Shown here one piece after another: positions 5,111 through 63,640 of a stretch of 64,000 nucleotides of DNA. Origin of the DNA: Antedon bifida (Eukaryota; Echinodermata; Crinoidea; Comatulida; Antedonidae); contig OY727096.1 of NCBI GenBank assembly GCA_963402885.1, positions 992,001 through 1,056,000 on the forward strand, read 5' to 3'. The position numbers were made by a program, and so were the translations under genes. The notes beneath the pieces are model-generated. The model saw only the letters and a program-made list of their open reading frames with translations. It was not told the DNA's origin and ran no database searches. How positions within the stretch are numbered: position 1 is the stretch's first letter; the number at the start of each line of letters is the position of its first letter.

Positions 5111-5156
5111 AATTATATTTTATATTTTTCAGAAATGAAGATAGAAAATTGAAAAC

Positions 5157-8100
5157 ATGACAGGTAATGGAAAATAAACATTTTTTTTTGTTTTTTTGAG
5201 TAAGTTAATAAAAGACGTTTCTATTATTTTTGGTTCCTCTATTTTGTAGATTTTAATCTGGATTTAGTGAATATTTCAACGTGGTATGATGATCACAATC
5301 TCTTCACAGAGCTAAAAGTGCTATACAGAGATTTAATTCCAGTTTCAACCATAGACAAAGCCAAAACAACGATAGACTTATTTCAAGAATTGATTAAAGC
5401 AGGACACTTAAGTCCTGAACAGATTTCGTTGCTTCACGAAACGGTAAAAGTAACACAGCAGATTGGTGCCTTCAAGGTTTTCCAACAATCTGATATCGAA
5501 GTTCAAACAATCAAAGTTATAACATTAACCCCATATCGACGCTCGATTGTTTATTTTGGAAATGGCATTACAAAGGCTGATGTTGACAAAATTGACGCAC
5601 TGTATAACGTTAACGCGTTAAAGAAATATAAAGACGCCTGGAGTATGATTTTGGATTTGGAACACAGACGAGTCATTTGTGAAGACAAACTTGACGAATT
5701 TATTGAAAGTTTAAGAAAGATTGGACTAACAGTGAAATCTGGGAATAAAGGTATGTTCATGGAACTATAATATAGTTATTTATAGTTCCATGGTATGTTT
5801 AATCAAAAGCGCGTAATCAAAAATCTTGGATTCGCACGTCTGCTAGAGATAAATTGTTCTAAACCTTGTTTATTTAGGTATAGTGGTGTCCACAACACCA
5901 TGTTTGAATTTCAACATCGTTCATTTGTTTGTTTGCTTGTTCGTTCGTTCATACATTCATTCATTTATCTATTTATAGTAAATCCATCCAAATATTTATT
6001 TGTTTATTTGTTCGTTCATGCATTCATTCATTTATCTATTTATAGTAAATCCATCCAAATATTTATTTGTTTATTTGTTCGTTCATGCATTCATTCATTT
6101 ATCTATTTATTAAAGCAAAGGAAATGCCGACCGGTAGTAATGAACAACAAGGAATCAAAAGAGGGGTTAAACCAGAAAGCGGTTAGTCATTACAGTTAAT
6201 CTGTATTACAAAATTTGAGATCCCCCGAAAGAATATTTTTGGAGTGAAAACATATTCTTGAGTAAATAGTCAAAGCCTACTATATCTTGGTCAATAAAGT
6301 AATTTCTGGTCACAATTGTACAAAATGTTACACTTAATATAGAGACATATATGCATTAAACAAGACAAGACCAAATACTGTACATGTCTCTAAGAATAGT
6401 AGTTCTGGTTCATTGGACAACAGTGAAACCTCAGAATAAAGATTTAAGCATGTTTATTCACGTGTCATCCAAAATCTTGGATCTGCAACTCTGCCAGACA
6501 TTGTACAAACTTATAAGATTGTCTGTATCTATGGTTTTTACAACAGAAACAATGGATGCTAGATACAAAGTTGTGACTTCTCAGATATTTACCGATATTG
6601 AAATACCAGTACTGAAGGAAACTGAAAACAAAGAAACCAGAAAACCAACACAATTTAAAGACGTAGTAGATGTAATCAGTTCCACACCACAAGAATCTAA
6701 TGCTCTTACAGGTGATATTATAGGTAAAGCTACTATATTAAAGGCATTTATTATATACCTGGGCTGATAAATCAGTTAATGTATTGGAGGTAAAATTGTA
6801 TTTCCTTTAAATGTAAGAGATTTAGAAAAGGTTGGTATCTTAGATCTGATTGTAAAGCAAGGTGTGCAAAAAACTTTCACGAAGTGTTGTGTAGGTTAGG
6901 GATTTTTTATTTAAGTTACCCGCGCACGCGCATTTAAATTAAAGGCATGTACATTTATTTTTTAATCGATTTTCTACATGATTCATGACATTTTGTGGTC
7001 TATAAATGCAAACTAAAATTTGATCTAATTCGTTCAATCTTCCAAGGACTCAATATCGTCATATAACCTTACTATGTGTAGACTATGTTTTAACCATAGT
7101 GTGCTGATTCAGTCCTGTAGCGATTGTTAAGGTTAAGGTTCAGATAAATATATAATATATATATTTTTCAGTAAAGAAGCTTTACTGTTTTAGGTGGAAT
7201 AAATGTTTTATTTTAGGATTAGGCCTACAATCTATTATTTTAAATTTGAATGTACTGAATTGTAGGCTCTGATAAAGAAAATTGTAAAATATTTCTTAGA
7301 TTGCTTAGGCTACATTGATTTAATAAACTTATCATTACTTTTTTTACATTTCAGATCCTTCACCTCCTACGAAACCAGTGAGTTCTTTATTTATATTTAA
7401 GAATATAATCCCACTTTGAAATGTGACTTGATAGGCAGCCATAAATTAACTTGTACAGTTCATGATGCAAGTGATAAAATAGTGCAAGCCTGATGTTACG
7501 AATAACGTTCTCTGATATGAATATTTTGGATGAACTCCATTCATAGTTTTAAAAACAGAATTAGTGATATTTGGAACTGGTTTATTAAAACAATCTAATA
7601 GTATGTACTTTACAAAATCCAATATGGAACGCCGTATCATCGAAATGTTGCGTAACGGCGTTCCATAATCCAACCTGCATCATCAGTGTTGAGGCAATCG
7701 TCCTCCAATTGTATGGAATATGGAACGCCTCCTCTGCCTTCAGTTCACATTTATCATGCAGTTACACACCAATGGTCATGCAGTACACACCAATCGTCAT
7801 GCAGTACACACCAAACATCATGCAGTACACACCAAACATCATGCAGTACACACCAATCGTCATGCAGTACACACCAATCGTCATGCAGTACACACCAATC
7901 GTCATGCAGTACACACCAATCGTCATGCAGTAAACACCAATCGTCATGCAGTACACACCAATCGTCATGCAGTACACACCAATCGTCATGCAGTACACAC
8001 CAATCGTCATGCAGTACACACCAATCGTCATGCAGTACACACCAATGGTCATGTAGTACACACCAATCGTCATGCAGTACACACCAATCGTCATGCAGTA

Positions 8101-11100
8101 CACACCAAACATCATGCAGTACACACCAATCGTCATGCAGTACACACCAATCGTCATGCAGTACCCCAATCGTCATGCAGTACACACCAATCGTCATGCA
8201 GTCAAATATTGCGCAGAGCCATATATAGAGAGAGTTACGTCATTGCGTTCACGGATTTTAGAAAGTCACGTGGTGTGCACGCCGGCCATGTTCGCAGTAA
8301 CTAATTTTTTTATTATTTTAACAAAAACCTTTAAACAAATTGATTGTTTTGATATTAAATTCGATAATTAAAGCCTTTTGAACGTTATACATTTTCAAAA
8401 TAAAAGACTCAACTCCATACGCTACATAGGAATAGTTGGACACAAACACGGCTTCTAATCCATTCAATGTCGAAACTCTCTCTATATATCAAAGATACTA
8501 TAGCGCCACGAAGTGGCGCCACGTAGTGGCGCTATACGATCTTTGCTATATATGGCTCTGATATTGCGTAATTTATACCGCCACCTATCGACAAAATCGA
8601 ATATCACGTGACGTTTATTAGACCGCTGTAAAACTATTTAAACTTCTTTTATGGAATTCAATAATTGCAATGGTCTCCTAGCCGCGCCTGTGTCTCGCAT
8701 AATAAATGATTGTATATATAAAAAACATTCACAGAGATTTGTAGCGGTTAAAATAAGTACAGTATGTCAAGCCTAAAAGAAATATTAGAGTCGATGGCAC
8801 TTAATGCGCGGCTAGGAGGCCATCCATTGCAATTATTGAATTCCATAAAAGAAGTTTAAATAGTCTTAGTTTTACAGCCGTCTAATAAACGTTACGTGAT
8901 ATTCGATTTTGTCGATAGGTGGCGGTATAAATTACGCAATATTAATTTTGACTGCATGACGATTGGTGTGTACTGCATGACGATTGGTGTATACTATGGA
9001 ACGCCTCCTCTGCCTTCAGTTCACAATGGTCATGCAGTACACACCAATCGTCATGCAGTACACACCAATCGTCATGCAGTACACACCAATGGTCATGCAG
9101 TACACACCAATCGTCGTTCACATTTATCATGCAGTACACACCAATCGTCATGCAGTACACACCAATCGTCATGCAGTACACACCAATCGTCATGCAGTAT
9201 ACACCAATCGTCATGCAGTACACACCAAACATCATGCAGTACACACCAATCGTCATGCAGTACACACCAAACATCATGCAGTACACACCAATGGTCATGC
9301 AGTACACACCAATTGTCATGCAGTACACACCAATCGTCATGCAGTACACACCAATCGTCATGCAGTGAAATATTGCGTAATTTATACCGCCACCTATCGA
9401 CAAAATCGAATATCACGTGACGTTTATTAGACGGCTGTAAAACTAGGCCATCGACTCTAAGATTTCTTTTATGTTTGACATACTGTACTTATTTTAACCA
9501 CTACACATCTCTGTGAATGCTCTGTTTTTTATATATACTATACTAATAAACCTCACGTGATATTCGATTTTGTCGATAGGTGGCGGTATAAATTACGCAA
9601 TATTTGACTGCATGGCGATTGGTGTGTACTGCATGACAATTGGTGTGTACTGCATGATGTTTGGTGTGTACTGCATGACGATTGGTGTGTACTGCATGAC
9701 GATTGGTGTGTACTGCATGATAAATGTGAACGACGATTGGTGTGTACTGCATGACAATTGGTGTGTACTGCATGACCATTGGTGTGTACTGCATGACGAT
9801 TGGTGTGTACTGCATGACGATTGGTGTGTACTGCATGATGTTTGGTGTGTACTGCATACGATTGGTGTGTATTGCATGATGTTTGATGTGTACTGCATGA
9901 CGATTGGTGTGTACTGCATGACGATTGGTGTGTACTGCATGACGATTGGTGTGTACTGCATGACGATTGGTGTGTACTGCATGATGTTTGATGTGTACTG
10001 CATGACGATTGGTGTGTACTGCATGACCATTGGTGTGTACTGCATGACGATTGGTGTGTACTGCATGACCATTGGTGTGTACTGCATGATAAATGTGAAC
10101 TGAAGGCAGAGGAGGCGTTCCATACTATAATGTAACGAAGTTGTACCTAATACAGTGATTTAAATACTGTTATTTTTTTTTATAGAATTCTCTTACCAGA
10201 GTAATGCAATCTACCCCGAACCAGGCCTACCAACCATCACTAGGTTATCAAGCAGGACAAGTAAGCTACTTAAATACATTTTGAGAAAAATAATATGTTG
10301 GCATTTAATATTATATTTCATATTATATTTCATATTTCAAATATCAAATAATTCAACATATAGTTTCTATCAATTGTAAAACAATTAAAATAAAGAAAGT
10401 GGTGATATATCACAGTAAGCCTCCAACTCAACTTATGGATAAGCAAGCCTGCGAGCTACAGCGATTTGAATTGCTTTTGCTTATCCTTGCCTCCTTAGAT
10501 TTCCGCCTGTCTTGTTTTTGTTACTTATGTTTAAATGTATTTAGATTTTGAAGGCTAAATAAAGAATGAATGAATGAATGATGAAAAAAACTCCGTCACT
10601 TAAAAAAAGTGCGGAAGGATTGTTTTTTTTTCGCTGGTTGACACTGCTTTGTACAGTGTTATGTCATTTTGAAATGATTTAAATAGAATACATTTTTCCT
10701 AATAAGTTTGTTTTTAACCTATAACTGCCTACTCTTGTAGACCTATATATGCATTTATCAACAAACCAATGATTAATATAATAAAAAGTAAATATAGATA
10801 CATGTACAGCTAGATGGTGTCCTTTTCAGTCTAGGCCTAAATCACGTAGAAGTCGTATATGTGTTAACTTAAACTTAAGTACCGTAAAACAACCCGATCA
10901 TTGCTGTATCTCCACATATTATCTATTTCCGAAGTATCATAGGAATATTTGGTAATACAGCATCTCATTTATATCACATGTGGTGCCTGTATCATGTAAA
11001 GTTAGGTTATATAGGTTACTACTAGATACATGTGAAACACATGTGATTATGGTGGTATTACCAAATATTCCTATGGTACTTATAGATAAAGTACTGAGAA

Positions 11101-12783
11101 TCGGCTGAAGCATTTTAATGTGCTATTATTTTTTTAGTATCCACTTCCTGCCTACCAACCATCACTAGGTTATCCAGCAGCACAAGTAAGTTACTTAAAT
11201 ACATTTTAAGAAAAACTCCGCAACATTATTTCATACGCATCTCCAATAGCGAGTAGTTCGCCAATAATTCAGGATGGATACATAAGCCAAATACAGAATA
11301 TAAAAAAATAAGTTTAACATAATCGTGGCGCTCAGCTGTGGAATAACCGAAACAATAATCTGAAAAATTCAAATACCCTTAAAATCTTTCAAGACATTGT
11401 GTTGTTGTTTGTCTAATTTACTAATTTTAACATTTTGATTTTTTTGTTGTTAACCTTGATTTTAATTTTAATGTGCTGTTATTTTTTAGTGTCCACTTCC
11501 TGCCTACCAACCATCACTAGGTTATCCAGCAGCACAAGTAAGTTACTTAAATACATTTTAAGAAAAACTCCGCAACATTATTTCATACGCATCTCCAATA
11601 GCGAGTAGTTCGCCAATAATTCAGGATGGATACATAAGCCAAATACAGAATATAAAAAAATAAGTTTAACATAATCGTGGCGCTCAGCTGTGGAATAACC
11701 GAAACAATAATCTGAAAAATTCAAATACCCTTAAAATCTTTCAAGACATTGTGTTGTTGTGTCTAATTTACTAATTTTAACATTTTGATTTTTTTGTTGT
11801 TAACCTTGATTTTAATTTTAATGTGCTGTTATTTTTTAGTGTCCACTTCCTGCCTACCAACCATCACTAGGTTATCCAGCAGCACAAGTAAGTTACTTAA
11901 ATACTTTTGGGAAAAATAATATTTTGACATTTAATATTATATTTCATATTTCTCACATTCTGTCATATTTTGTTTGTTTTAAAAATATATTGAGTTAATT
12001 TTGGTGTTAATGTTTTGTTCTAGGAACTAGCAATAAAAACATTACAAATAAACAGTGAGCAATCACAGGATGGATAAACTATTTAATAATTGATCGTACT
12101 TTTAAACTTAGTGAGTGGAGATGAAAGAGTCGTGAGTTACAACTCAGCGCTAGGTCAGGATTGAACCCTGGATCTTGAGATTGTAAGGCAAGCACGTTAT
12201 CCACCAAGCTACAGCTCCACTTTCATCAACAGAAAAATCACCTATATGTTACTTTTATGTTTTCAGCCCGCCTACCCACCACAACCACAACCACAACCTG
12301 CAGGTCACACCGCCTCAAATACCCAGTCCGTTCCACTGACCACAATAACGACCGCCAGGATCAAGCCTATAAATTACCTTTTTTGTGCTATACTTGTGAC
12401 TTTATTCTGCTGTCCAGCTGGAATTATCGGAATGATCTACAGTGTAGAAGTAAGTTTATAATTCTCTTCTGCTAAGTCCCTCCCTACCAGGGATCAGAGT
12501 AATCTCACTCTTTCCTGGTATATTAAATACGAAATACAGTATAATGCCGACAACAGTGGATTTCATTTATTTTCTTTATTTAACATGTTTTTAGTTATGT
12601 TTCAATCAATCTCAATCTTATTTTGTTTTTCAGAGTCAGATTATGTTTCGCCGTGGTGAATATGCAACCGCCGCAAGCTCGGCTAAACGAGCCAGATGCT
12701 GGACGATTTGTGCGGTGGTGACTGGTATTACAGTTATCACTGTCTTTTTCACATTTAAATTAGTACTAGCAGGCCTATCTTAA
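5157..12783 (+). CDS. Death-effector-like / CD225 (dispanin, IFITM-type) fusion protein, ten coding exons
   Basis: Exons joined by GT/AG signals and codon phase: 5157-5163, 5250-5750, 6547-6711, 7355-7377, 10186-10260, 11138-11185, 11490-11537, 11840-11887, 12267-12449, 12634-12783. The total is 1248 nt, or 415 residues. Residues 4-80 resemble a death-effector domain (LKVLYRDLIP, IDLFQELIKAGHLS, a final six-helix pattern). Residues 100-161 look like a second, more divergent death fold. Residues 170-257 are a low-similarity linker, 258-305 are three near-identical 16-residue units, and 306-330 are Pro/Gln-rich. Residues 340-412 match CD225: a first hydrophobic segment with adjacent cysteines (FCCPAG), a YSVE loop, an AxxxAKRARCW loop and a second hydrophobic segment. 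The family name and fold are known. Coupling of death-fold signalling to an endosomal or plasma-membrane anchor is inference. The start was chosen because ATGACAG at 5157 splices in phase into the first death fold. Confidence 0.8.
5250..5750 (+). CDS. Exon 2 of the fusion gene: both death folds
   Basis: A single 501-bp exon, preceded by TTTTGTAG and followed by GTATGT, holds both predicted death folds. The first has the death-effector hallmarks: a charged helix ending RDLIP, a helix with DLFQELI, the GHLS turn and a leucine-rich fifth helix. The usual RxDLL hydrophobic-charge motif is not obvious, so it is divergent. The second fold (from YFGNGITKADVDKIDALY onward) shows the same helix rhythm, with WSMILDLEHRRVI in the helix 3-4 position. 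The tandem order recalls caspase-8 and FLIP, but no caspase domain follows. Confidence 0.75.
5930..6115. repeat. Tandem repeat, about 66-bp unit, roughly 2.5 copies
   Basis: Units start at TCCATCCAAATATTTATTTG and continue through GTTCGTTCATGCATTCATTC and TTATCTATTTATAG. A partial unit recurs at 16695-16760 beside the duplicated exons, so the repeat was part of the duplicated segment. It is intronic in the fusion gene. Confidence 0.7.
6116..6186 (+). other. Candidate alternative terminal exon of the fusion gene
   Basis: After a weak 3' splice signal (TTTATTAAAG) a phase-1 frame stays open through MPTGSNEQQGIKRGVKPESG and then stops at TAG. The paralogous stretch at 16766-16872 has a better splice signal (AAAACAG) and keeps the same frame with conservative changes before TGA. 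Splicing exon 2 to this exon would give a short protein with only the death folds and no membrane domain. The support is preserved frame in two copies; no transcript data exist. Confidence 0.35.
7763..8202 (+). repeat. 21-bp tandem array A
   Basis: About 22 copies of ACACACCAATCGTCATGCAGT, written here as CACCAATCGTCATGCAG plus the ACA/T join. Variants replace CCAATCGTC with CCAAACATC or CCAATGGTC. Each unit carries a CCAAT pentamer. Confidence 0.9.
8214..8560. mobile_element. hAT-like MITE with 8-bp target duplication
   Basis: 347 bp with perfect 15-bp inverted ends CAGAGCCATATATAG / CTATATATGGCTCTG, flanked on both sides by the direct repeat ATATTGCG (8206-8213 and 8561-8568). An 8-bp duplication is typical of hAT-superfamily insertion. 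The insertion interrupts the older element whose ends read AAATATTGCGTAATTT. An internal palindrome at 8491-8535 (TATAGCGCCAC and its complement) also sits here. Confidence 0.85.
8569..8945. mobile_element. Inverted-repeat element, about 130-bp arms
   Basis: 8569-8700 and 8808-8945 are near-perfect inverted copies around a loop of about 105 bp. The arms contain TATACCGCCACCTATCGAC, ATCACGTGACG, and TTGCAATTATTGAATTCC or their complements. With the piece left of the hAT insertion (8204-8213) it forms one older MITE. A shorter relative is at 9368-9603. Confidence 0.8.
9018..9366 (+). repeat. 21-bp tandem array B
   Basis: About 17 units of the same 21-bp repeat as array A. The array is broken once near 9113-9130 by a copy of the element's subterminal GTTCACATTTATCATGCAG. 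Two reversed units lie just to its left at 8954-8990. Confidence 0.9.
9368..9603. mobile_element. 236-bp MITE between the forward and reverse satellite arrays
   Basis: Inverted arms of about 60 bp begin AAATATTGCGTAATTTATAC and close with the complement. They contain GGTGGCGGTA and ATCACGTGA. The element sits exactly where the satellite changes orientation. Confidence 0.8.
9607..10080 (-). repeat. 21-bp tandem array C (reverse orientation)
   Basis: About 22 reverse-oriented units (GTACTGCATGACGATTGGTGT and variants), ending at the right terminal repeat. Together with arrays A and B it could form a very large cruciform or hairpin transcript. Confidence 0.9.
11138..11887 (+). repeat. Tandem duplication of a 48-bp exon with its intron
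   Basis: Three exons (11138-11185, 11490-11537, 11840-11887) encode the same 16-residue unit (Y/C-PLPAYQPSLGYPAAQ). The last two belong to an almost identical 350-352 bp tandem duplication (11186-11537 and 11538-11887). All are phase 0 at both ends, so any number can be included without breaking the frame. Exon 5 at 10186-10260 ends in a related unit, the likely ancestor. Confidence 0.9.
12105..12225 (-). repeat. tRNA-derived SINE fragment
   Basis: On the minus strand an A box (TAGCTTGGTGGATAACG) and a B box (GGGTTCAATCC) occur at tRNA-like spacing. No proper acceptor stem or CCA context is present. A related fragment lies on the minus strand near 59370-59450. Confidence 0.65.
12267..12783 (+). 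CDS. Exons 9-10 of the fusion gene: CD225/dispanin domain
   Basis: Exon 9 (12267-12449) encodes a Pro/Gln linker and the first hydrophobic segment with INYLFCAIL, the double cysteine of LFCCPAG and GMIYSVE. Exon 10 (12634-12783) encodes the conserved loop with AKRARCW and the second segment, ending LAGLS-stop. In vertebrate IFITMs the equivalent cysteines are palmitoylated and the second segment spans the membrane. The splice point between the segments falls at about the same place as in IFITM genes. The C-terminal tail beyond the last segment is only a few residues. Confidence 0.85.
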
Positions 12784-16689: not shown

Positions 16690-18300
16690 GAATCCATCCA
16701 ATTATTTATTTGTTTGTTTGTTTGTTTATGCATTCATTCATTCATTTATCTATTTATTAAAACAGGGGAAATGCCGACCGGTAGTAATGAAGAACAAGTA
16801 ATCAAAAAAGGGGTTAAACCAGAAAGCGGTTTAGTTATTTGTATTGTATCGTGTATTATACTATATTACTGAATAAACATACTTCAACCAAGCGAGTGGA
16901 GTCAAAACCTCACACATCATATCACAGTATAGTCCATATAAGTCGAAGGGGCCGAAAATGGCACCTGATCCCATCCGAGTTTCAAAACAAACTCGGGATT
17001 ATCGCCAATGATTTCCGTAAGCAATCAAAGGAGACATCACAAACTTGGTCTACCTGCAGACGTTTCAAATTACTATTAATTAAATTTCAGTATATCACCG
17101 GGCGGTTTAGAAATAATGTTCTATGCCTAATGTGTTAGGATTTAATCAAACAATATTTAAATAACATAAAATATATAATATTATTAGAATAGATTCTGAC
17201 AATTTAATTTTATTTTGTTTACAATTTAAAAAATAGATGAATATTTGCTTCAAAAACAAAAGAACTTGTGCAGACAGGACAGTCAATTTACAACAGAAAC
17301 AATGGATGCTAGATACAAAGTTGTGACTTCTCAGATATTTACCGATATTGAAATACCAGTACTGAAGGAAACTGAAAACAAAGAAACCAGAAAACCAACA
17401 CAATTTAAAGACGTAGTAGATGTAATCAGTTCCACACCACAAGAATCTAATGCTCTTACAGGTGGGGATTTTTTATCGAAGTTACCCGCGCACGCGCATT
17501 TAAATTAAAGGCGTGTACATTTATTTTTTAATCGATTTTCTACATGACATTTTGTGTTCTATAAATGCAAACTAAAATTTGATCTAATTCGTTCAATCTA
17601 TGTGAGTCATATGGCCGAGCGGTTAAGGCAGGGGCGCCGTTTACCGTACCTAAAGAGCCAACAACAACATCGGCAAGGGTTCGAGGCCGACTCGCTCCTA
17701 GTTCTGGTGGTGGAACAAGTCTTCTCGGATAAGGACTATAAACCGTAGGTCCAGTGTACACAGTTATAACCTGTGTGTACTTTAAAGAACCCAGTTCATT
17801 ATTCGAAAAAGAGTAGGGGGTTACCCCGGTGAACTGGTTCACACAATAGCCCCTGTATCAGGGGGATTACCACCTATCTGATAGGACAGTGATTAATTCA
17901 CTATTGGTAATCCTTGGCCACATTGCCTAAAGACATAAAATAAAATAAATAAAATCTTCCAAGGACTCAATATCGTCATATTATAACCATAATATGCGTA
18001 GACTATGTTTTATCCATATTGTTCTATGATTCAGTCCTGTAGCGATTGTTAAGGTTTAGGTAAATATATAATTATATATATTTTTCAGTAAAGAAGCTTT
18101 ACTATTTTAGGTGGAATAAATGTTTTATTTTAGGATTAGGCCTACAATCTATTATTTTAAATTTGAAACATGTACTGAAGTTTAGTGTCTGATAAAGAAA
18201 AGTGTAAAGCAGTTCTTAGATTGCTTAGGCTACATTGATTTAATAGTTTATCATTTTACATTTCAGATGCTTTACCTACGAATCAAGTGAGTTCTTTATT
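16690..18300 (+). pseudogene. Partial duplication of the death-fold/CD225 gene
   Basis: Contains an exon at 17297-17461 that is identical over 165 bp to exon 3 of the fusion gene (6547-6711), a 20-bp equivalent of exon 4 at 18267-18286 with good splice sites, and the candidate terminal exon at 16766-16872. The surrounding introns are recognisably similar to 5990-7385 but carry insertions and deletions. No death-fold exon and no CD225 exons are present here. It is either a decaying fragment or spare exons of the upstream gene. The perfect exon identity points to recent duplication or conversion. Confidence 0.7.
17600..17957 (+). mobile_element. tRNA-derived SINE with empty-site proof
   Basis: The head has an A box (TGGCCGAGCGGTTAAGGC) and a B box (GGTTCGAGGCC). 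The tail ends in AAATAAAATAAAT-type repeats. The duplicated segment at 7021-7050 reads straight through the insertion point (GTTCAATCTTCCAAGGACTC), so it is the empty site. This fixes the element's limits and shows that it inserted after the duplication. A short AATCT direct repeat flanks it. Confidence 0.8.
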
Positions 18301-19713
18301 TATATATACCAATGTTGAGCTTAAACTACAAAAAAAGTTAAATAAAGTTTAAAATGAATTAATAAATTGTGTTTGTGTTCTTGGTTGCTTTACCATTATA
18401 ATACCATGTTAGATTTAATTCAAAATAATTGATTTTGTTTATACGTGTTGTTAAACTACACACTGGTTGCTTACAATCTCTAAACTAATAACCAAAGATG
18501 ACGATTCAAATATTGAATTTTTAATGATAATTAATATACAAAAAAACAAAATGTCAATGAAACTAAACTGAAATAATAAATGTTAAGAGGATATATTCAT
18601 GATTTTAGATTGCTGGTTCTTAACCGAGTCGATTTTAATAGAACATTAAATCATTCTTATAGACCTATAAAAGCTATTGAAAAACTGTGGTAATAAACAA
18701 TAATAATAATATATTTAAATGGCTCTGGTAATAAGCGTTGGGTAGCGCCCTCTATAGTTTGGACCCAAGACCTCCGTGACTTTCTACGACGTGATGATAG
18801 ACGCGAGAAGTATGGACAGCAACATCATGTCATTGAATTCCGTAAAAAACATAAATGTCTAAATGGCGCCCCGTACACAATCGGAGAGCAGTTCCATTCC
18901 AGATTTCCGTGTGGAGACGAGACGTACAACACACCGCCCTGCCCTGTGTTTTCTGTGTATTTAGTGGTGGGCTTTATGGCCTAATGTTTTACTTGATTAC
19001 ATTTTATGACATACGAAGACTGTGATAGGATCTAACAAAGGTTTGGTCTAGTATTATATATTTTGTTGGCGAATTTAGCTTAGTTATTTACTAGTCTAGC
19101 TTGTGTAAAGTTAAGCCAGGCCAGTCCGCGTTTTGTTGTGATTAGCCTAGCCTAGCTAGGCCTGGTAGTAGGCTTCTCTCTGTTCGGATCGTCCGTAGGC
19201 TTGGCTCTATTGAACGGAGAGGGAGGGGCTCAATTGAAAATTTTTCAGTGTAGACCGGCATAGGCCTAGCTAGCTACAGTAGTAGTAGTAGTGGATACCA
19301 ACTGCAATATATAATTTAAAGTAAAATAAATAAGTTACAATATTAAATAAATTTATTTTATTGGAAATAATACTATTTAATGATAAGATCCCTAAAAATA
19401 TGTGAATGTAGGCCTTTATTTATAGTTTAGGCCTAAGCTTCGAAGTAGGCTACTCACTGTAGGCCTTAGCTTAGAAGTTGGAGGCCTAGCTAAAGCTAGG
19501 CCTAGGTTAGGTAGGCCCGGCCTACAGAAATATTTTAAATAAATAGATTAAGATGACATAATTAATAATTAACATTTATCATCTGGATTGCAGCACATTG
19601 TGTTAACACAAAGTTGTTTCATTACGGTACACATTAACTTTTTATACATTTATAGTTATACCAGCATTTTTATAATCATATTTATTTTACATTTTGGGGT
19701 CATGCATCTATTA
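18300..19713. other. No gene seen; duplicated block and AGGCCTA-rich patch
   Basis: 18770-19095 is the second copy of the block at 15040-15460. From 19110 to 19530 there are many overlapping TAGGCCTAGC-type palindromic words. This could be the promoter or first untranslated exon region of the Ral gene, whose coding start is at 24135, but no splice donor can be tied to it. Confidence 0.4.
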
Positions 19714-24134: not shown

Positions 24135-25889
<1,755 letters not shown>

Positions 25890-34354: not shown

Positions 34355-35377
34355 TCAAAAGTGGCCTTTTGATTGACCAGCAGCCACAATTTCATTTGGC
34401 ACTTTTCGTTCACTGGCAGCCTTTTGATTGGTCAGCTCATCTTTCTTCATTATCATAGAGATATTTATTTTTGTCGAACACTCTGGACAAAACAAGCGTT
34501 GGATAGAGGTTGTAATCGGGGTATCTTTGGTTCGATTCTCAGGCTTGAAATATGCAAACAACATTTTTACAGGACAGGAATAACTTGTTTTGGAAATTCC
34601 TTTTCTGCACAACTTCTTTCGACCATATTTATCCAGTAATTTACGAAACACTTCTCTTTGTTTTGAGTCAAGTTGAATGCAGCTACCAATTCCTTCCTTT
34701 ACTGCATTGACAATTTCTGTTATGAAACTCTGATTTTTCAAGATCATCTGTATCTTTTCTTCCTTTTTACCTTTCAGCACCATCTTAAACGTCTTTGCAA
34801 GCTTGGTTAATTCATCTACGCTTAGTAGTTTCAGGGTCTGTTCAGGGTCTTGCAGGTCAGCATCAATTTCCATGAATCCAGCTGCAGCTAGCTTCTGAAT
34901 AGCATCTTCCAAGTCAATAATTTCGTTGTATTTTACCTTATCAACTCTAATCCATCCCTACTTCCTCATGTAGAGACTTGCAAATAATTTCTTGGCATCT
35001 GGGGGTAACTTCTTAAAGTCTTCAACAACTTTCTTCTCGTCTGCAGACACCCCCTTTTTGTCCAAAATGTCTGGATCTTGCAGTACATTACCCAGCAGGT
35101 CCTGGATGTAGCCAAGAGCATGTGCCTTCCATCCATTAACAACTAATTTGTTCTGCTCCTCACCATCGCCATCCTTGGGACAAATTTCTAATGTAGTGAC
35201 ACAACTTTGTCTGGGGCATTCCAATTTTCCACTCGGCTTCTGGTGCGTTATCACTAAATGAACATCTGCCCGATGTTTATCGTCAAAGTCGTCATTACGT
35301 TTAAGTTTTTTGTTACTTCCTGGATGTGTTCCTGAATGTTCTCTCTTGTTCTCGGCCATTTTCAAGACTTGTATCAT
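34355..35377 (-). pseudogene. FAN1 SAP-region-only protein, copy 1, interrupted by one stop codon
   Basis: On the minus strand the frame starts at 35377 and is open except for one TAG at 34958-34960. It then continues in the same frame to TGA at 34355. At the TAG the intact paralogue has CAG (Gln) in an otherwise matching context (MRK-x-GWI), so this is a single C-to-T nonsense change. Recognised FAN1-like features are AHALGYIQDLLGNVL, LPPDAKKLFASLYMRK, GWIRVDKVKYNEI, DAIQKLAAAGF and the SAP-like LLSVDELTKLAKTFK. The tail has two CxxC-type cysteines (SCPVK, FCPECS) and one DELTNQKAASERK unit. There are no TPR or VRR-nuclease parts and no introns. It could be a recent pseudogene, a polymorphic null or a read-through gene. 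Confidence 0.7.
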
Positions 35378-37048: not shown

Positions 37049-37949
37049 TGCAACCTGTGATCGTAATTAGTGGTAGTATAACAGTAGTCAATAAACAATC
37101 TCAACATCCAGCTCTTTAAATGTACTCCTTTATTGGGTTACTACACAATGTGAATTAGGAGATATCAAATACTAACACTAAATATTTAACTTTTACTTTC
37201 CTTTTTTTTAAAACATAATTGAAAAGCAATGAACTTTAAACAATAACCTTTATCTTAAAATCTGTGTACAACCAACTTCTGTGCATATCTAATAAAAATG
37301 CAGTGACTTTTCATGCTTATGTTATAACAGCAATTATATAGCATTTATCAGTTCTTTAATAATAAACAGTTCATTCTTGTAAACATCTGGAAGGTCGATT
37401 CACACTTCTGCGAGATCTCGTAGACTTTACTGGGATGTTATTGTTGTTGGTTTTATCAGGCAGTTTATCTAATGTCGTTTCAGCTTTCTCCGATGGTTGA
37501 ATATATGGTTTCAAACGGTTGTAGTGGACTACTGTCCTGCAATTTGTACACTAGACCATCATTTTTCACCTCTACAACTGTGTATGGTCCTTTCCATCTC
37601 GGGCTTAATTTATTTCTAATGTTCACAGGATCATCAAGCCAAACTTTTTCTCCAACTTTGTGAGGTTGAAACTTCTGTTTTCGATCATAATATGACTTCT
37701 GCTTATTCTTTTGAATGGCTACTTTTTCAGTCACAAAATCGGAAGCTCTATGGATGCGATTAAGTAAATCCGCAACATACTCTTGAGTAGTTTGGTTAGG
37801 TGTCGTTGCTTGCCAATCTTGGTTCTCTTCCATGGACTAAATAAAACGGACTATAGCCTGTAGTTTCGTGCACTATCGCATTGTACTGTAATTCGATCTG
37901 GATGAGTAAATTGTCCCTCTATAGCGTGACCTTAAATTCTGGGGTTACA
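37049..37949 (-). mobile_element. Ty3/gypsy-type retroelement fragment inserted in FAN1-like copy 2
   Basis: 901 bp beginning TG and ending CA, flanked by the direct repeat GTAT (37045-37048 and 37950-37953). On the minus strand 37833-37480 is open and resembles the C-terminal end of a gypsy-class integrase (YYDRKQKF, VGEKVWL, LSPRWKGPYTVV), with a frameshifted upstream piece (GYSPFYLVHGREPR) at about 37900-37830. The rest, about 37480-37049, is probably LTR-like. Most of the element is missing, so it is an internally deleted or non-autonomous copy. The short target duplication and TG/CA ends fit integrase-mediated insertion. Confidence 0.75.
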
Positions 37950-38913
37950 GTATCACAGAAACCATTATTTTTGTACCACACACTGGAGATGGACAAGACA
38001 AGCTGTGGGCAGCTGCGCTGGTAGTAGTGGTTATTTCTTTGGTGGTGGTTTGATAGAAATTCTCATGAAGATTAGGCTTATAAAATGCAAACATCTTTTT
38101 CACCGGACATGAATCTTCTTTGTGTTTGTAAATTCCTCGACAGTTCAATTTTTTCCAGCCGTATCTATCCAGTAATTCACGAAACACTTCTCTTTGATTC
38201 GATCCAAGTTGAATGCACCTACCAATATTTTCCTTCGCTTTGTTGAATATTTCTGTTTGGAATCTGTTTACCAGCATTTGCTGTATTAGTTCCTCCTTCT
38301 TTGTACCTTTCAGCTTTATCTTCTTCTCATTTGCAAATGCTTTCAGTTCTTTTAGGGTTAATAGTTTCAAAATCTGTTCAGGGTTTTGCAGGTCATCATC
38401 AATGAATCCAGCTGCAGCTAGCTTCTGGATAGCATCAGCCAGGTCAATAATTTCGTTGTAATGTAGTTCATCAACCTTAATCCATCCCTGCTTCCTCATG
38501 TAAAGTCTCGCAAATAATTTCTTGCCATCTGGGGGTAACCTTTTAAAGTCTTCAACAACTTTCTTCTTGTCTGCTGACAGTGACACTCCCTTTTTGTCTA
38601 ACAAGATGTCTGGATCTTCTCGCAGTACATCATCCAACAGCTCTAGGATATAACCAAGAGCGTGTGCCTTGCGTTTCGTAATCGTAATATTTAATATCTT
38701 TGTATTATTCTCATTCACCTCATACTTGATTTCCAAGGTAGTAGCACTACACTCCCCGCATTCTAATTTATCACTCGGCTTCTGAGGCGTCAGCTCTACA
38801 ACATCTGACCGTTGACCTAGGCCTAGTCCAAGGCCTAGGATATCGTCGTCATTGCTTTTTAGCTTTTTGTATAACTTATCACCTGAATGTGCTTCATATT
38901 CTCTCTTGGCCAT
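37945..38913 (-). CDS. FAN1 SAP-region-only protein, copy 2
   Basis: A single-exon frame of 322 codons. Residues 1-60 are a charged N-terminal region with a KKLK stretch. Residues 83-155 match the FAN1 segment leading into its SAP domain (AHALGYILELLDDVL, LPPDGKKLFARLYMRKQGWI). Residues 160-215 include the SAP helix-turn-helix (LLTLKELKAFANEKKIKLKG). Residues 225-262 match the following FAN1 helices (GSNQREVFRELLDRYG). The end has paired cysteines (SCPVK, SCPSPVCG). The stop arises only from the retroelement; without it the frame runs on for a 556-residue protein ending in 14-residue repeats. In FAN1 this region binds DNA beside a VRR nuclease that is absent here. Role unknown; a DNA-binding function is inference. 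Absence of introns suggests retroposition followed by tandem duplication. Confidence 0.75.
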   Translation of the reverse strand: MAKREYEAHSGDKLYKKLKSNDDDILGLGLGLGQRSDVVELTPQKPSDKLECGECSATTLEIKYEVNENNTKILNITITKRKAHALGYILELLDDVLREDPDILLDKKGVSLSADKKKVVEDFKRLPPDGKKLFARLYMRKQGWIKVDELHYNEIIDLADAIQKLAAAGFIDDDLQNPEQILKLLTLKELKAFANEKKIKLKGTKKEELIQQMLVNRFQTEIFNKAKENIGRCIQLGSNQREVFRELLDRYGWKKLNCRGIYKHKEDSCPVKKMFAFYKPNLHENFYQTTTKEITTTTSAAAHSLSCPSPVCGTKIMVSVIL

Positions 38914-39118
38914 CTTCAGAATTATTACACACTATAACTATAACAATATAATAAATTAACAACAGACAATATATTTTATAACAGTATTTATGCAGTTGTT
39001 GTTGTCTATAACACGCGATCCTCTTCTTCTCTTCTCTTGACACTTGACAGATACTAATAATAATACAGTAGAAAGTTCGCGAACGATTCATTTTCCCGCC
39101 TTGTTAGAAAAACTTGAC

Positions 39119-59065: not shown

Positions 59066-59940
59066 GTTTGTATTTCCCCTTTTCTCTATTCTCTAAATTT
59101 TAGACAAATTGCCAAGGATAACCATAGGCGAATTAATTCACTATTATTCACAGTACAACATATACACAAGATGATCTATATAAACAAAGTCTTTATTTGT
59201 TTTTTTTTTCTCTTTTAGTAGTGTAAACTATGAAAAAACTTATTATTCATTCGTCATATATCACAAATACATATTATAGATGTTCGTTATTATTTCTCTT
59301 TCTATATTACCGTTTTTCCCCCATTATTTAAGTCTATAAGTCTTTGTGGAATTTGTCAAGAGAAAGTACTATGACAGAACTCGAACCCAGGACCCTTGGA
59401 TTGGAAGCCGCGAATCATAACCACCAAGCCACAGCTTTTTTGGGCGTTGCACACCAAGGATAACCCACTAAGTCCACAGACTTGTTTCAGGTGGGGTCCT
59501 TCTGGTGAATTGGGCGGTACACCGTGAGAAGATCCCCTACTCTATCTACGATCAGTAGTCAAATGTTCAACACACTGTCCCACACACTGTCCCACACACC
59601 CTTACAAGTTTCAACTGTTAATAGGTTATGAAATTGATATCATTTATTTATAATAATGAAATTGAAGGTCTAGTGTTTCCTAATGTTGTTCTCAATTTCA
59701 ATGGTGAAAGCAATTAAGTAATTTTCTTTAATTTACTTATTATGCCAATTGTAGAAATATATGATAGAAACAGCTTTTATAAAACTACTTTAAATACAGC
59801 ACAACTAATTAAACTACAGCACTACTAATTAAATTCCAGTGTATTTTTAGCACCACTTGTATTCATATAGCAGATCTCTACTGCAATTTCTACCAGTCTT
59901 AGAAATCTACAGCAACAATCGGTTATCCAAACTTAAGAAA
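59066..59940. other. Intron (PHF20-type gene) and upstream region of GPCR 1
   Basis: A minus-strand tRNA-derived SINE head lies at about 59370-59450 (B box GGGTTCGAG, A box TGGCTTGGTGGTTATG). The region 59640-59940 is duplicated at about 62010-62297 with the second GPCR, so the duplicated unit included upstream sequence. Confidence 0.55.
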
Positions 59941-59946
59941 CTAAAA

Positions 59947-60807
59947 ATGGGTTTAAATATTACTGAAGAAACATGGATTTTGTACAAAATTGGATGTGGT
60001 GTTGCTACAATTGGCCTGATTGCTAATGTTGTTGATCTTTGCGTAATTCTTAAATTGTCGTCTCTTCGCAAGAGCACACGATTACTCATATTCAACCAAT
60101 CAGTGGCTGACTCTCTTGGATGTTTAACTTTTTTGATCCAATGTTTACTCTTTGATATCAATTTAGATTTGTTCTGTGTTATGTTTAGCGTGTTGTTAAT
60201 GTTTGCTGAAATTTCTTCATTTAACTTAGCAGTCATATCGATAGAACGTTACTTAGCGATATTTAAACCTCACTGGTTTAAGAATAGATATAAAGAGAAA
60301 CATGCATACATTGTAATATTTTGCATGTGGCCTGTCGGAATTTTTGTTCATCCAGATAAGCTATTTTTGCAGGAAGGAAATCAATTTGCTTTTTACTGTG
60401 GAACACAAGAAGGTTATGAAATCTTTCCATACATTAACGTACTGCTTTCATTCGTGATATTTTCATTTACCATTTGCACCATAATTGTTGTATATTCAAG
60501 TATCTTCTACAAACTCTGTAAACAGCGACGATTAGTTTCAACTCAACCGGCATCATCTACCACACCATCTCTTCATCTTAAAACTCTCAAAGTATTTTTT
60601 GCTATAAGTTCTGCTTACATCATCAATTGGATTCCTTTTTTTGTCATTTTTCCGATATATCATTTCACAAGCAATGATTTTGGTTTTCAAGTTGTTGTTT
60701 TCAGTTTGATCTTTCTCATTTCCAATTTCATTGTTAATCCTTTTCTTTATACGATATTTATGCCACAGTTCCTTCTCCACTTGCGTAAACTTTTTTGTGC
60801 AAATTAA
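59947..60807 (+). CDS. Rhodopsin-class orphan GPCR, copy 1
   Basis: A single-exon frame of 286 residues from ATG at 59947. It has seven hydrophobic segments: TM1 with the conserved ANVV, TM2 with NQSVADSLG (Asp2.50), TM3 ending IERYLAIF (ERY in place of DRY), TM6 with INWIPFF, TM7 with NPFLY. A cysteine before TM3 (DLFCVMF) and one in the second extracellular loop (FYCGTQEG) can form the usual disulfide. The N terminus is only about 12 residues and has one N-glycosylation site (NIT). Ligand unknown. Upstream in-frame residues lack a good start, and the conserved paralogue begins at this ATG. Confidence 0.9.
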   Translation: MGLNITEETWILYKIGCGVATIGLIANVVDLCVILKLSSLRKSTRLLIFNQSVADSLGCLTFLIQCLLFDINLDLFCVMFSVLLMFAEISSFNLAVISIERYLAIFKPHWFKNRYKEKHAYIVIFCMWPVGIFVHPDKLFLQEGNQFAFYCGTQEGYEIFPYINVLLSFVIFSFTICTIIVVYSSIFYKLCKQRRLVSTQPASSTTPSLHLKTLKVFFAISSAYIINWIPFFVIFPIYHFTSNDFGFQVVVFSLIFLISNFIVNPFLYTIFMPQFLLHLRKLFCAN

Positions 60808-62290
60808 TTTGAAATGTAGAATTTTATATATAACTACTAAATACGTATTCACTGAATTTTTGTGTAAATTAATGCATTCCCAGCATGCATTAATCACATA
60901 CCTATATATCTATGATATACTAAAGTGGTCACGTCTATTAATAATCCTACTGCAGTTGATGCAGTATTCTATGCTTGCTAAATAATTGTATAATAGGTTA
61001 AGTAAAAGCAGCATGGTAGTTACTGCAGTAAACTGCAGTAGAATAATGTTGTCATGGTCCTTATTAGTGATCCTCTTTTCTCCATGGCCAATGAAAGGGA
61101 CTTGTTGACTTTCTTTTGAATCGGTTGAGAATAAATATAATTCAAGATTTCTTTTGTATTCTAAAATGTAGATTTCCAAGATGGAGGTAATTAGATTTTA
61201 ACAGCTTAAAATCAACAAATCAATTTAAGTCATTATGCATTTATCTAAATTGAAAAGCAATTTGTTGTGCTAATAAGTTCCACATTAAGTCATCATTTCT
61301 AAGTTCTCATTTCTAATATATTTTTATATGGTATAGTTTATTCCATTCTGTAAGGGACGAGTTTCCCGCTGTTGAATGAGTTTGAATAAAATAAAAATAA
61401 ATAAAAATAAAATAAATAAAATAATACAAGTGTGTTTCTGTAAAACAGGTTAGAAGACACACTGGTATATGCAAAGTTGATGTCACCTACTGTAGCCTAG
61501 CTTCTAGACGGATTTGGCTTAAAATATTATAAAGGAAAACATCTTGGCACGTACAAATGCCATGTCATAACTATACTTCAGCTGGAACTAGTTTTTGAGA
61601 AAAAATATAAATAGCTGTTGGTGGTACTGGTCCCTCTCTATGGTGGAACTCTTTTTAAATTGTGATTGTGTTGTGTGACAGTCTAGTTCTGATAAGTCGT
61701 CTTTTAATTGGTATTTTAGTGAAGTAAAGCTCTGTCTACACTATCAAACTATTTTGAGAAAAAAAGTGTGATGTGCCCAAATATGGTAGTGATATGACAT
61801 CATCATGTCCATATAGTTAAGACCAGTTAAAAAGTTAATGCCCTTACTGCAGGTCATCAATATCTAAAGTACTAACCTCAGATACATTATATACCCTTTA
61901 TCAAGAAATGTATCTTTTTTCGAAGTTAGATTTAAATACTACTTCTGCCAACTTTATTTCAACAACACAATTTAAAAATATTTGCTTGCGAAAAGACTTT
62001 AACTTTGTTAACTCAATAATAATGAAATTGAAAAAGACAAGGTCTAGTGTTTCCTAATGTTGTTTTTAAAATGTGAATGGTGAAAGCAATTGAGTAATTT
62101 TCTTAATTTACTTGGCAATGGCAATGCTTAAATTAAATAACTACTTTAAATACAAAAATTGTCTAATTGAATTCCACTAAGTGTGTTTTTAGCGCCACTA
62201 TATCCCAGCTTCAGTATCTACCAGTCTTAGAAATCTAAGTCTACTGTAACAATCGGTTATCCAAACTTAAGAAACGGAAACATTTAGCAA
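60808..62290. other. Spacer between GPCR copies
   Basis: Holds a small TACTGCAGT-ended element (60944-61046), a LINE/SINE-like tail (61355-61430: GAGTTTCCCGCTGTTGAATG, then AAATAAAATAAATA), and a partial AGCTCTGTCTACACTAT element at 61727-61815. No coding sequence besides the upstream duplicate region of copy 2. Confidence 0.5.
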
Positions 62291-62297
62291 ACTAAAA

Positions 62298-63158
62298 ATG
62301 GGTTTAAATATTACTGAAGAAACGTGGATTTTGTACAAAATTGGATGTGGTGTTGCTACAATTGGCCTGATCGCTAATGTTGTAGTTCTTTGCGTAATTC
62401 TTAAATTGTCATCTGTTCGCAAGAGCACACGTTTACTCATATTCAACCAATCGATGGCTGACTCACTTGGATGTTTAAGTTTTTTTATTATATTTTTACT
62501 ATTTGATATCAATTTAGATTTGTTCTGCGTTATGTTAAGCGTGTTACTGATAATATCTGAAATTTCTTCATTTAACTTAGCAGTCATATCGATAGAACGT
62601 TACTTAGCGATATTTAAACCTCACTGGTTTAAGAATAAATATAAACAGAAACATGCATACATTGTAATATTTTGCATGTGGCCTGTTGGAATATTTGTTC
62701 ATCCACAAATGATATTTTTGAAAGAAGGAGATCTATTTGCTTTTTACTGTGGAACACAAGAAGGTTATGAAGTGTTATCTTACATAAGCCTACCGCTTTC
62801 TTTCGTGGTATTTTTATTTACTACATGTACCATAACATTTGTATATTTGAGTATTTTGTACAAACTCCGTAAACAGCAAAGATTAGTTTCAACTCAACCG
62901 GCATCTTCTAAAACACCATCTCTTCATCTTAAAACTCTCAAAGTATTTTTTGCTATAAGTTCTGCTTACATTATCAATTGGTTTCCTTTTTTTGTCCTTT
63001 TTCTGATATATCGTCTCACGAGCAATGATTTTGGTTTTCAAGTTGTTGTTTTCTGTTTGATCTTTTTCCTTACCAGTTTCACCGTTAATCCTTTTCTTTA
63101 TACGATATTTATGCCACAGTTCCTTCTCCACTTGCGTAAACTGTTCAGAATTATTTGA
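62298..63158 (+). CDS. Rhodopsin-class orphan GPCR, copy 2
   Basis: 286 residues, the same length as copy 1 and alignable without gaps. The conserved elements are kept: ANVV, NQSMADSLG, IERYLAIF, INWFPFF, NPFLY, and both disulfide cysteines. Differences concentrate in TM2/TM3 and in the second extracellular loop to TM5 (for example LQEGNQF to LKEGDLF), the parts that usually shape ligand binding. The pair therefore looks like a recent tandem duplication with functional divergence. Confidence 0.9.
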   Translation: MGLNITEETWILYKIGCGVATIGLIANVVVLCVILKLSSVRKSTRLLIFNQSMADSLGCLSFFIIFLLFDINLDLFCVMLSVLLIISEISSFNLAVISIERYLAIFKPHWFKNKYKQKHAYIVIFCMWPVGIFVHPQMIFLKEGDLFAFYCGTQEGYEVLSYISLPLSFVVFLFTTCTITFVYLSILYKLRKQQRLVSTQPASSKTPSLHLKTLKVFFAISSAYIINWFPFFVLFLIYRLTSNDFGFQVVVFCLIFFLTSFTVNPFLYTIFMPQFLLHLRKLFRII

Positions 63159-63316: not shown

Positions 63317-63640
63317 ATGGGTTATAATATTTCAGAGCAGACTTGGATTGTGATGGAGATGTTGTATTTCTTCTGTTGGCCTAGTTGTTAATGTTGTAGT
63401 TCTTTGCATAATTCTTAAATTGTCGTCTTTTCGCAAGAGCACACGATTACTCATATTCGACCAATCGGTGGCTGATTCACTTGGATGTTTAACTTTTTTG
63501 ATCCAATTTTTAGTACTTGATAATTTAGATGTCTTCTGCGTTATGCTAAGTGTGATAATGATGATAGCTGAAATTTCTTAATTTAACTTGGCTTTTATAT
63601 CAATAGAGCGTTACTTAGCGATATTTAAACCTCATGTTAC
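63317..63640 (+). pseudogene. Third GPCR copy, broken and truncated
   Basis: Starts with ATGGGTTATAATATTTCAG, similar to the other two. A deletion of about nine bases with a frame change occurs in TM1, and a TAA appears in the TM3 region (GAAATTTCTTAATTTAAC where the others read GAAATTTCTTCATTTAAC). Similarity stops after ATATTTAAACCTCA, and tandem repeats follow. It lacks TM4-TM7. Confidence 0.85.

Follow-up and report, generated by a model that had tools for sequence, protein, structure and literature searches.

A candidate chimeric gene in the crinoid Antedon bifida that joins the tandem death-effector head of an NLR gene to a dispanin

Gene structure and predicted product

The window analysed here is a stretch of 64,000 nt on contig 9 of the Antedon bifida genome, which comprises 315.6 Mb in 27 contigs. 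COX1 lies on contig 27 (15,844 bp), and part of it makes sense when AAA is translated as Asn and ATA as Ile, the assignments of the echinoderm code. Eleven exons, spanning positions 5157 to 12783, make up a single frame of 1326 nt including the stop, which encodes 441 amino acids with zero internal stops; every splice junction of this fusion model is GT-AG, and all features of the locus described below are on the plus strand. A sequence-only reading had reported ten exons in a single frame; the frame holds, and the count becomes 11 with a tiny exon 1 (5157-5163), which supplies the start codon (ATG ACA G) in only 7 coding bases. Exon 2 (5250-5750) encodes a predicted tandem death-effector domain (DED) and is followed by a small exon 3 (6116-6181), exon 4 (6547-6723), and exon 5 (7355-7377; DPSPPTKP). 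Exon 6 (10186-10260) is proline/tyrosine-rich and contains an alternative in-frame Met at residue 265. Exons 7, 8, and 9 (11138-11185, 11490-11537, and 11840-11887) are tandem 48-nt copies (PLPAYQPSLGYPAAQ), exon 10 (12267-12449) encodes a proline-rich stretch and then the first hydrophobic segment with a CC pair, and exon 11 (12634-12783) encodes the CD225 loop, the second hydrophobic segment, and the stop. Exons 2 to 4 are all symmetric (phase 1-1). The fusion frame tolerates skipping of exon 3, of exon 4, or of the two together, and is broken by skipping of exon 5. The predicted product lacking exons 3 and 4 is a tandem DED-CD225 protein of 360 aa.

Positions 11112-11916 hold a pair of tandem repeat units, each about 352 bp long and 98% identical to the other, and a third, shorter copy (94%); each of the three contains one 48-nt linker exon, a recent in-frame exon multiplication. 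Intron 5 is 2.8 kb long and rich in minisatellite repeats; by eye, a fold-back stretch at 7690-10125 consists of oppositely oriented copies of a 21-bp minisatellite (CACCAATCGTCATGCAGTACA).

The sequence-only reading had assigned a death-effector region and a CD225/dispanin domain to a single frame and had proposed an HMM search of the protein against both Pfam models. This search places both above cut-off, and they are the only Pfam domains above cut-off in the 441-aa chain. DED (PF01335) scores 40.8 bits in the full-length gene model and 45.2 in the exon alone (cut-off 35.9; E = 2.6e-10), with its best stretch at residues 17-70, and CD225 (PF04505) scores 65.1 bits at residues 365-430 (cut-off 27.1; E = 6e-18). 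The Pfam search of the chain gives no Peptidase_C14 match, and the C-terminal LRR or other sensor part of an NLR is absent from it, the chain ending in CD225; NCBIfam gives zero matches for the predicted fusion protein.

Our DED alignment comprises the window exon together with 12 relatives, and Pfam DED matches all 13 sequences at E values up to 0.01. The solved structures closest to the DED exon are the tandem DEDs of c-FLIP and caspase-8; searched with a 13-sequence profile, the c-FLIP tandem DEDs rank first at a whole-sequence E of 2e-4, a match in which no single stretch passes alone. Taken by itself, Pfam assigns no DED to the second half of the exon, and the same is true of three close relatives. 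A profile of 11 second halves (the window, the three close relatives, and seven hand-picked from other DED loci) ranks caspase-8 prodomains first among solved structures at a whole-sequence E of 4e-4, again with no single stretch passing. Of the two death folds that had been read from the sequence, the first is thus confirmed by Pfam, and a second DED-like half after it is weakly indicated by this profile. AlphaFold2 run on the DED exon alone as a single sequence gives an uninformative pLDDT of 41.6. The RxDL charge-triad motif lies in DED helix 6 and is not universal; by eye, it is seen in neither half of the window exon and is seen in several single-DED frames of the same genome. c-FLIP carries its tandem DED with no active protease, and the window protein would likewise lack an active enzyme beside its tandem DED. 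The window protein differs from c-FLIP and caspase-8 in having no caspase-like domain, in that RxDL is not seen by eye, and in the added membrane anchor.

At the other end of the chain, the C-terminal dispanin domain with a double cysteine that had been read from the sequence is borne out: two hydropathy peaks fall within about residues 366-391 and 414-438, and the paired cysteine is Cys 379-380. CD225 proteins reside in cell membranes with the N-terminus cytosolic, as in IFITM3. The window protein shares with CD225 proteins the Pfam domain, the two hydrophobic segments, the paired cysteine, and a proline-rich N-terminal side; unlike them, it has an N-terminal tandem DED. It also differs at a GxxxG motif, which is broken in the window (GEYAT, the second Gly replaced by Thr) and reads GDDAG or GDVEG in four paralogues; we take this position to be that of the IFITM3 GxxxG. 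GxxxG is the oligomerisation motif of IFITM3 (PMC7665892), and IFITM3 binds SNAREs (PMC11730294). The CD225/dispanin family includes IFITM3 and PRRT2. The dispanin paper PMC3282796 gave no passage on echinoderms, domain architecture, other domains, or introns.

Origins of the two halves

We searched the genome with the DED exon and compared the best 150 of 618 candidates, the window included, whose identity runs from 62% downwards; three of these 150 contain an inner stop. Among the best 50 tandem-DED exons (window included), 40 have a same-strand NACHT match within 10 kb downstream, as scored against 103 of 229 NACHT candidates. The two nearest relatives among the matches listed are 62% identical to the window exon and lie 2.5 and 2.8 kb upstream of a NACHT. 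By our own reading, two of the nearest, L066 and L067, have a 5'UTR with a start exon, a DED exon, one or more small exons, and a NACHT exon, and the window aligns to them from the 5'UTR into NACHT. Positions 5119-5757, which span the 5'UTR, the start exon, the intron, and the DED exon, are 74% identical to L066 857-1514, with exon 1 and its 5'UTR matching NLR exon 1 (ATGGCTTCAG in L066), and positions 6105-6187, which contain exon 3, are 80% identical to L066 1735-1817. Exon 4 has 40 matches in the genome, two of which are the window's own copies, and 33 of the 40 end no more than 60 bp upstream of a NACHT match; it represents the inner part of the first stretch of the NLR NACHT exon and ends within the Walker A codons. 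The alignment into NACHT, the exon 4 matches that abut NACHT, and the position of the DED exons upstream of NACHT together identify exons 1-4, by homology, as the 5' head of a tandem-DED-NACHT (NLR) gene from a large family. The single-exon tandem-DED units form a very large family genome-wide, for example on contig 7 at 32-36 Mb and on contig 8 at 19.7-20.0 Mb. DED-NACHT pairings are described for sea urchin, amphioxus, and Nematostella (PMC2575513). The order there, an N-terminal DED followed by NACHT, is the source layout of exons 1-4; in contrast, the NACHT of the window is destroyed and CD225 stands in its place.

About 137 bp of NACHT remain after exon 4 (6724-6860) and, aligned with L066 and L067, contain a 1-nt insertion, a stop, and later a 1-nt deletion. 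Walker A, which reads GEGGIGKST or GEGGIGKTT in the two NLRs, is shortened to GDIIGKAT, followed by the frameshift and the stop. A 28-nt deletion has removed part of the NACHT-exon start, and an intact NACHT NTPase with Walker A is absent from the window. The acceptor and the donor of exon 4 are both new. The donor (ATAG/GTAAAG) sits in the Walker A codons, and the stretch ATAGGTAAA, also found in both NLRs, appears to have been co-opted as this splice donor. At exon 3, the ancestral CAG acceptor is lost and an AAG 6 nt upstream preserves the frame, although this acceptor (ATTAAAG) looks weak. The frame-breaking lesions are confined to NLR parts that are dispensable for the fusion: three are found within roughly 200 nt of the NACHT exon, not counting exon 4, and the 501-nt DED exon has none. 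With random placement over these 200 + 501 nt, the DED exon would escape all three lesions with a probability of (200/701) cubed, or about 0.02.

There are 24 CD225 exon matches in the genome, 11 of them at 4.92-4.96 Mb on contig 12. For two of the genes there, in loci L027 and L028, our gene models begin with a start exon ATGTCA[T/A]CAGAAAAATATCAAG and continue with a DPSAQTNPGYPAVT exon, which is homologous to window exon 5 and shares its phase-1 acceptor, and then with homologues of exons 6, 10, and 11. Exons 5, 6, 10, and 11 thus have dispanin homologues, exon 5 being dispanin exon 2, and by this homology we identify exons 5-11 as a relocated dispanin. Upstream of exon 5, positions 7005-7040 are 94% identical to the stretch that precedes the start codon in L027 and L028 and are presumed to be a remnant of the dispanin 5'UTR. 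The ATG exon itself is not recognisable in 6851-10200, where the best match has 8 mismatches in 22 (mean of shuffled sequences, 7.97). Compared with the paralogues, exon 5 retains its acceptor, donor, and phase, and it is joined via a phase-1 donor in the dispanin and the fusion alike, so NLR exons can replace the lost start. A deletion between a TATA box and the 5'UTR of the dispanin remnant, noticed by eye, was dropped after the alignment placed the gap differently. Three points had escaped the sequence-only reading: the DED half is a truncated NLR head, NACHT remains lie between the halves, and the CD225 half is missing the start exon that its paralogues possess.

Duplication, frame survival, and selection

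A partial copy of the locus lies 10 kb downstream (16691-18305). It contains exon 3, exon 4, the dispanin 5' remnant, and exon 5, without the DED and without CD225, and its exon 3 retains the CAG acceptor. The noncoding sequences of the two copies differ at 36 of 537 sites. Exon 4 is 100% identical between them over 178 bp, with three alignable flanks that differ by 3-10%, and this combination suggests gene conversion at exon 4. Because the downstream copy shares the NLR-dispanin junction and has diverged at 36/537 noncoding sites, the fusion is older than the duplication. If the contig 12 gene in L027 is the nearest relative, the fusion would also be younger than the split from that gene (intron K, 0.17-0.18; dS, 0.20). 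These values would bracket the age of the fusion at a neutral divergence of about 0.07 to 0.2.

We simulated neutral decay over the time since the duplication at the rate observed between the copies (36 substitutions plus 9 indels over 537 aligned noncoding sites); the result hinges on the indel rate, for which AT-rich noncoding DNA supplied those nine events. The open frame survives in 2.7% of simulations for the DED exon, 0.4% for exons 1-5, and 0.01% for all exons; at half the rate, survival is 16% for the DED exon and 6% for exons 1-5. With substitutions alone, these values rise to 44% (DED exon), 32% (exons 1-5), and 14% (all exons).

For the DED exon, omega on the window branch, which mostly predates the fusion, is 0.43 (8 of the 13 sequences, 153 codons); it does not differ from the background (0.37; LRT 0.2), and the LRT against 1 is 7.4. 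The CD225 half gives a window-branch omega of 2.8 against 0.33 elsewhere, with an LRT of 5.6 against 1 and of 22.2 against the background (95 codons from five genes on a fixed tree, with the C10 gene, which has no first exon, left out and two others trimmed). In 200 bootstraps at omega 1, five were as extreme with omega above 1, and nine were as extreme in either direction. Sixteen of the 49 sites that are invariant in four paralogues are changed in the window, the second Gly of GxxxG among them. Length changes in the CD225 exons are of whole codons, while five of the seven indels in intron 9 are not. The amino acids of the CD225 half have thus been replaced at about the neutral rate or faster, with the frame kept. 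Relative to the nearest paralogue, dN is 0.31, dS 0.20, and K 0.17 in intron 9 and 0.18 in introns 4-5. Relaxed constraint may lie behind part of the modest excess, since dN to the second paralogue (0.32) is close to K in intron 9 (0.27) and, among the pairwise omega values against four paralogues (1.52, 1.39, 0.68, and 0.38), the last two are below 1.

A young chimera and its alternatives

Taking these results together, we consider the locus to be probably a young functional chimera that presents a tandem DED on a membrane anchor. The open 441-aa frame, the homology of both halves, the loss of NACHT, and the lack of a recognisable dispanin start exon support this reading. The 5' part of a tandem-DED-NACHT gene, cut shortly past Walker A, would have landed directly upstream of a relocated dispanin without its own start exon. 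Transcription would start at the NLR start, and with joining exons that are all phase 1, one mRNA would encode a tandem DED, a proline/tyrosine-rich linker, and a CD225 membrane domain. We are highly confident of the genomic history, the joining of an NLR head to a relocated dispanin. That a fused functional protein is made has a probability of roughly 0.5 in our estimate: the lost exon 3 acceptor, the new exon 4 sites, and the long, repeat-rich intron 5 argue against the chimera, as does Met 265 in exon 6 as a separate start for the CD225 part, and a DED-only protein would account for the survival of the DED exon as well.

The serious alternative, which we consider quite possible but less likely than the chimera, is that a decayed NLR relic merely neighbours a dispanin in separate use. 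Here the dispanin would be transcribed on its own from Met 265, which is in frame, or from another start, and the NLR fragment would be decaying or would perhaps encode a short tandem-DED protein ending in intron 2 (...SGNKGMFMEL), where read-through ends after six codons. The decay of NACHT, of the exon 3 acceptor, and of the NACHT-exon start, and the dispanin 5' remnants that persist between the halves, all suit such neighbours. They sit less well with the unrecognisable dispanin ATG exon and with the preserved acceptor, donor, and phase of exon 5, which coding from an exon 6 start would not need; the intact DED exon, against a simulated survival of 2.7%, also speaks for the chimera over a bare relic, though a DED-only protein would explain it too.

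It is improbable that the entire locus is dead and its frame open by chance. The lesions midway through the NLR part, the loss of purifying constraint in the CD225 half relative to its paralogues (the LRT of 22.2), and a substitutions-only survival of 14% to 44% would be expected of a pseudogene, but once indels are included, simulated survival drops to 0.4% (exons 1-5) and 0.01% (all exons), the CD225 exons change length by whole codons in contrast to intron 9, and the CD225 branch omega is estimated above 1. An assembly artefact that joins two unrelated loci is very improbable: nothing specific favours it, and the diverged copy 10 kb downstream has the same junction of exon 4, dispanin remnant, and exon 5.

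If the chimera is functional, CD225 would anchor the tandem DED to a membrane, on its cytosolic side, and the protein, lacking the NACHT switch, could act as a fixed platform or a decoy in assemblies with tandem DEDs from the sister NLRs or with the partners of those NLRs. A membrane-anchored scaffold is a reasonable inference from this architecture. With GxxxG broken, membrane tethering is our safer guess than an IFITM-type block of fusion. The fullest version, an expressed and membrane-tethered tandem DED that is fixed in the species, has a positively selected CD225 half, and serves as a constant endosomal or plasma-membrane platform or decoy for the tandem-DED signalling of the very large NLR family, is possible but doubtful. 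MAVS has an N-terminal death fold, a proline-rich middle, and a C-terminal membrane anchor, and the window protein has the same order, with no homology claimed: MAVS combines a CARD with a single TM, and the window protein a DED with CD225. Caspase matches are found beside paired single-DED matches on contig 1 at 8.32 and 8.50 Mb and are possible partners.

The DED-CD225 pairing is found once in the genome among the best 50 of 618 DED candidates: of the other 49 tandem-DED exons, none is followed by a CD225 match on its own strand within 50 kb (50 of the 150 listed DED matches against all 24 CD225 matches). A death-effector/CD225 fusion was not found in the open-access literature, represented mostly by titles and the starts of abstracts, which agrees with the earlier statement that no described protein is known to combine the two. 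One Hydra paper mentions both CD225 and a death effector domain, but lists them in separate genes. If the fused protein is made, the locus would record a recently dated transfer of an immune-sensor head onto the body of a membrane restriction factor, with both donor families persisting in the same genome and the enabling exon phases still visible. Large NLR repertoires could then be a source of signalling heads for other immune proteins, and the gene would offer a testable natural experiment in tandem-DED signalling from a membrane without a NACHT switch.

The window contains further candidate genes. A Ras-family GTPase is encoded by exons at 24687-25646 (plus strand), the first identified by Pfam and the second, like the resemblance to Ral, by eye. 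An open frame at 37948-38931 (minus strand) matches Pfam FAN1_HTH above cut-off (3.3e-11); open-frame stretches similar to it by eye lie at 34358-35377 (minus strand), where FAN1_HTH is weak and below cut-off over 34358-34957. A frame at 37483-37836 (minus strand) resembles, by eye, the end of a retrotransposon integrase. At 59851-60804 and 62271-63155 (plus strand) lie tandem GPCR genes of the rhodopsin family (Pfam 7tm_1), and a third GPCR-like frame is seen by eye at 63354-63578.
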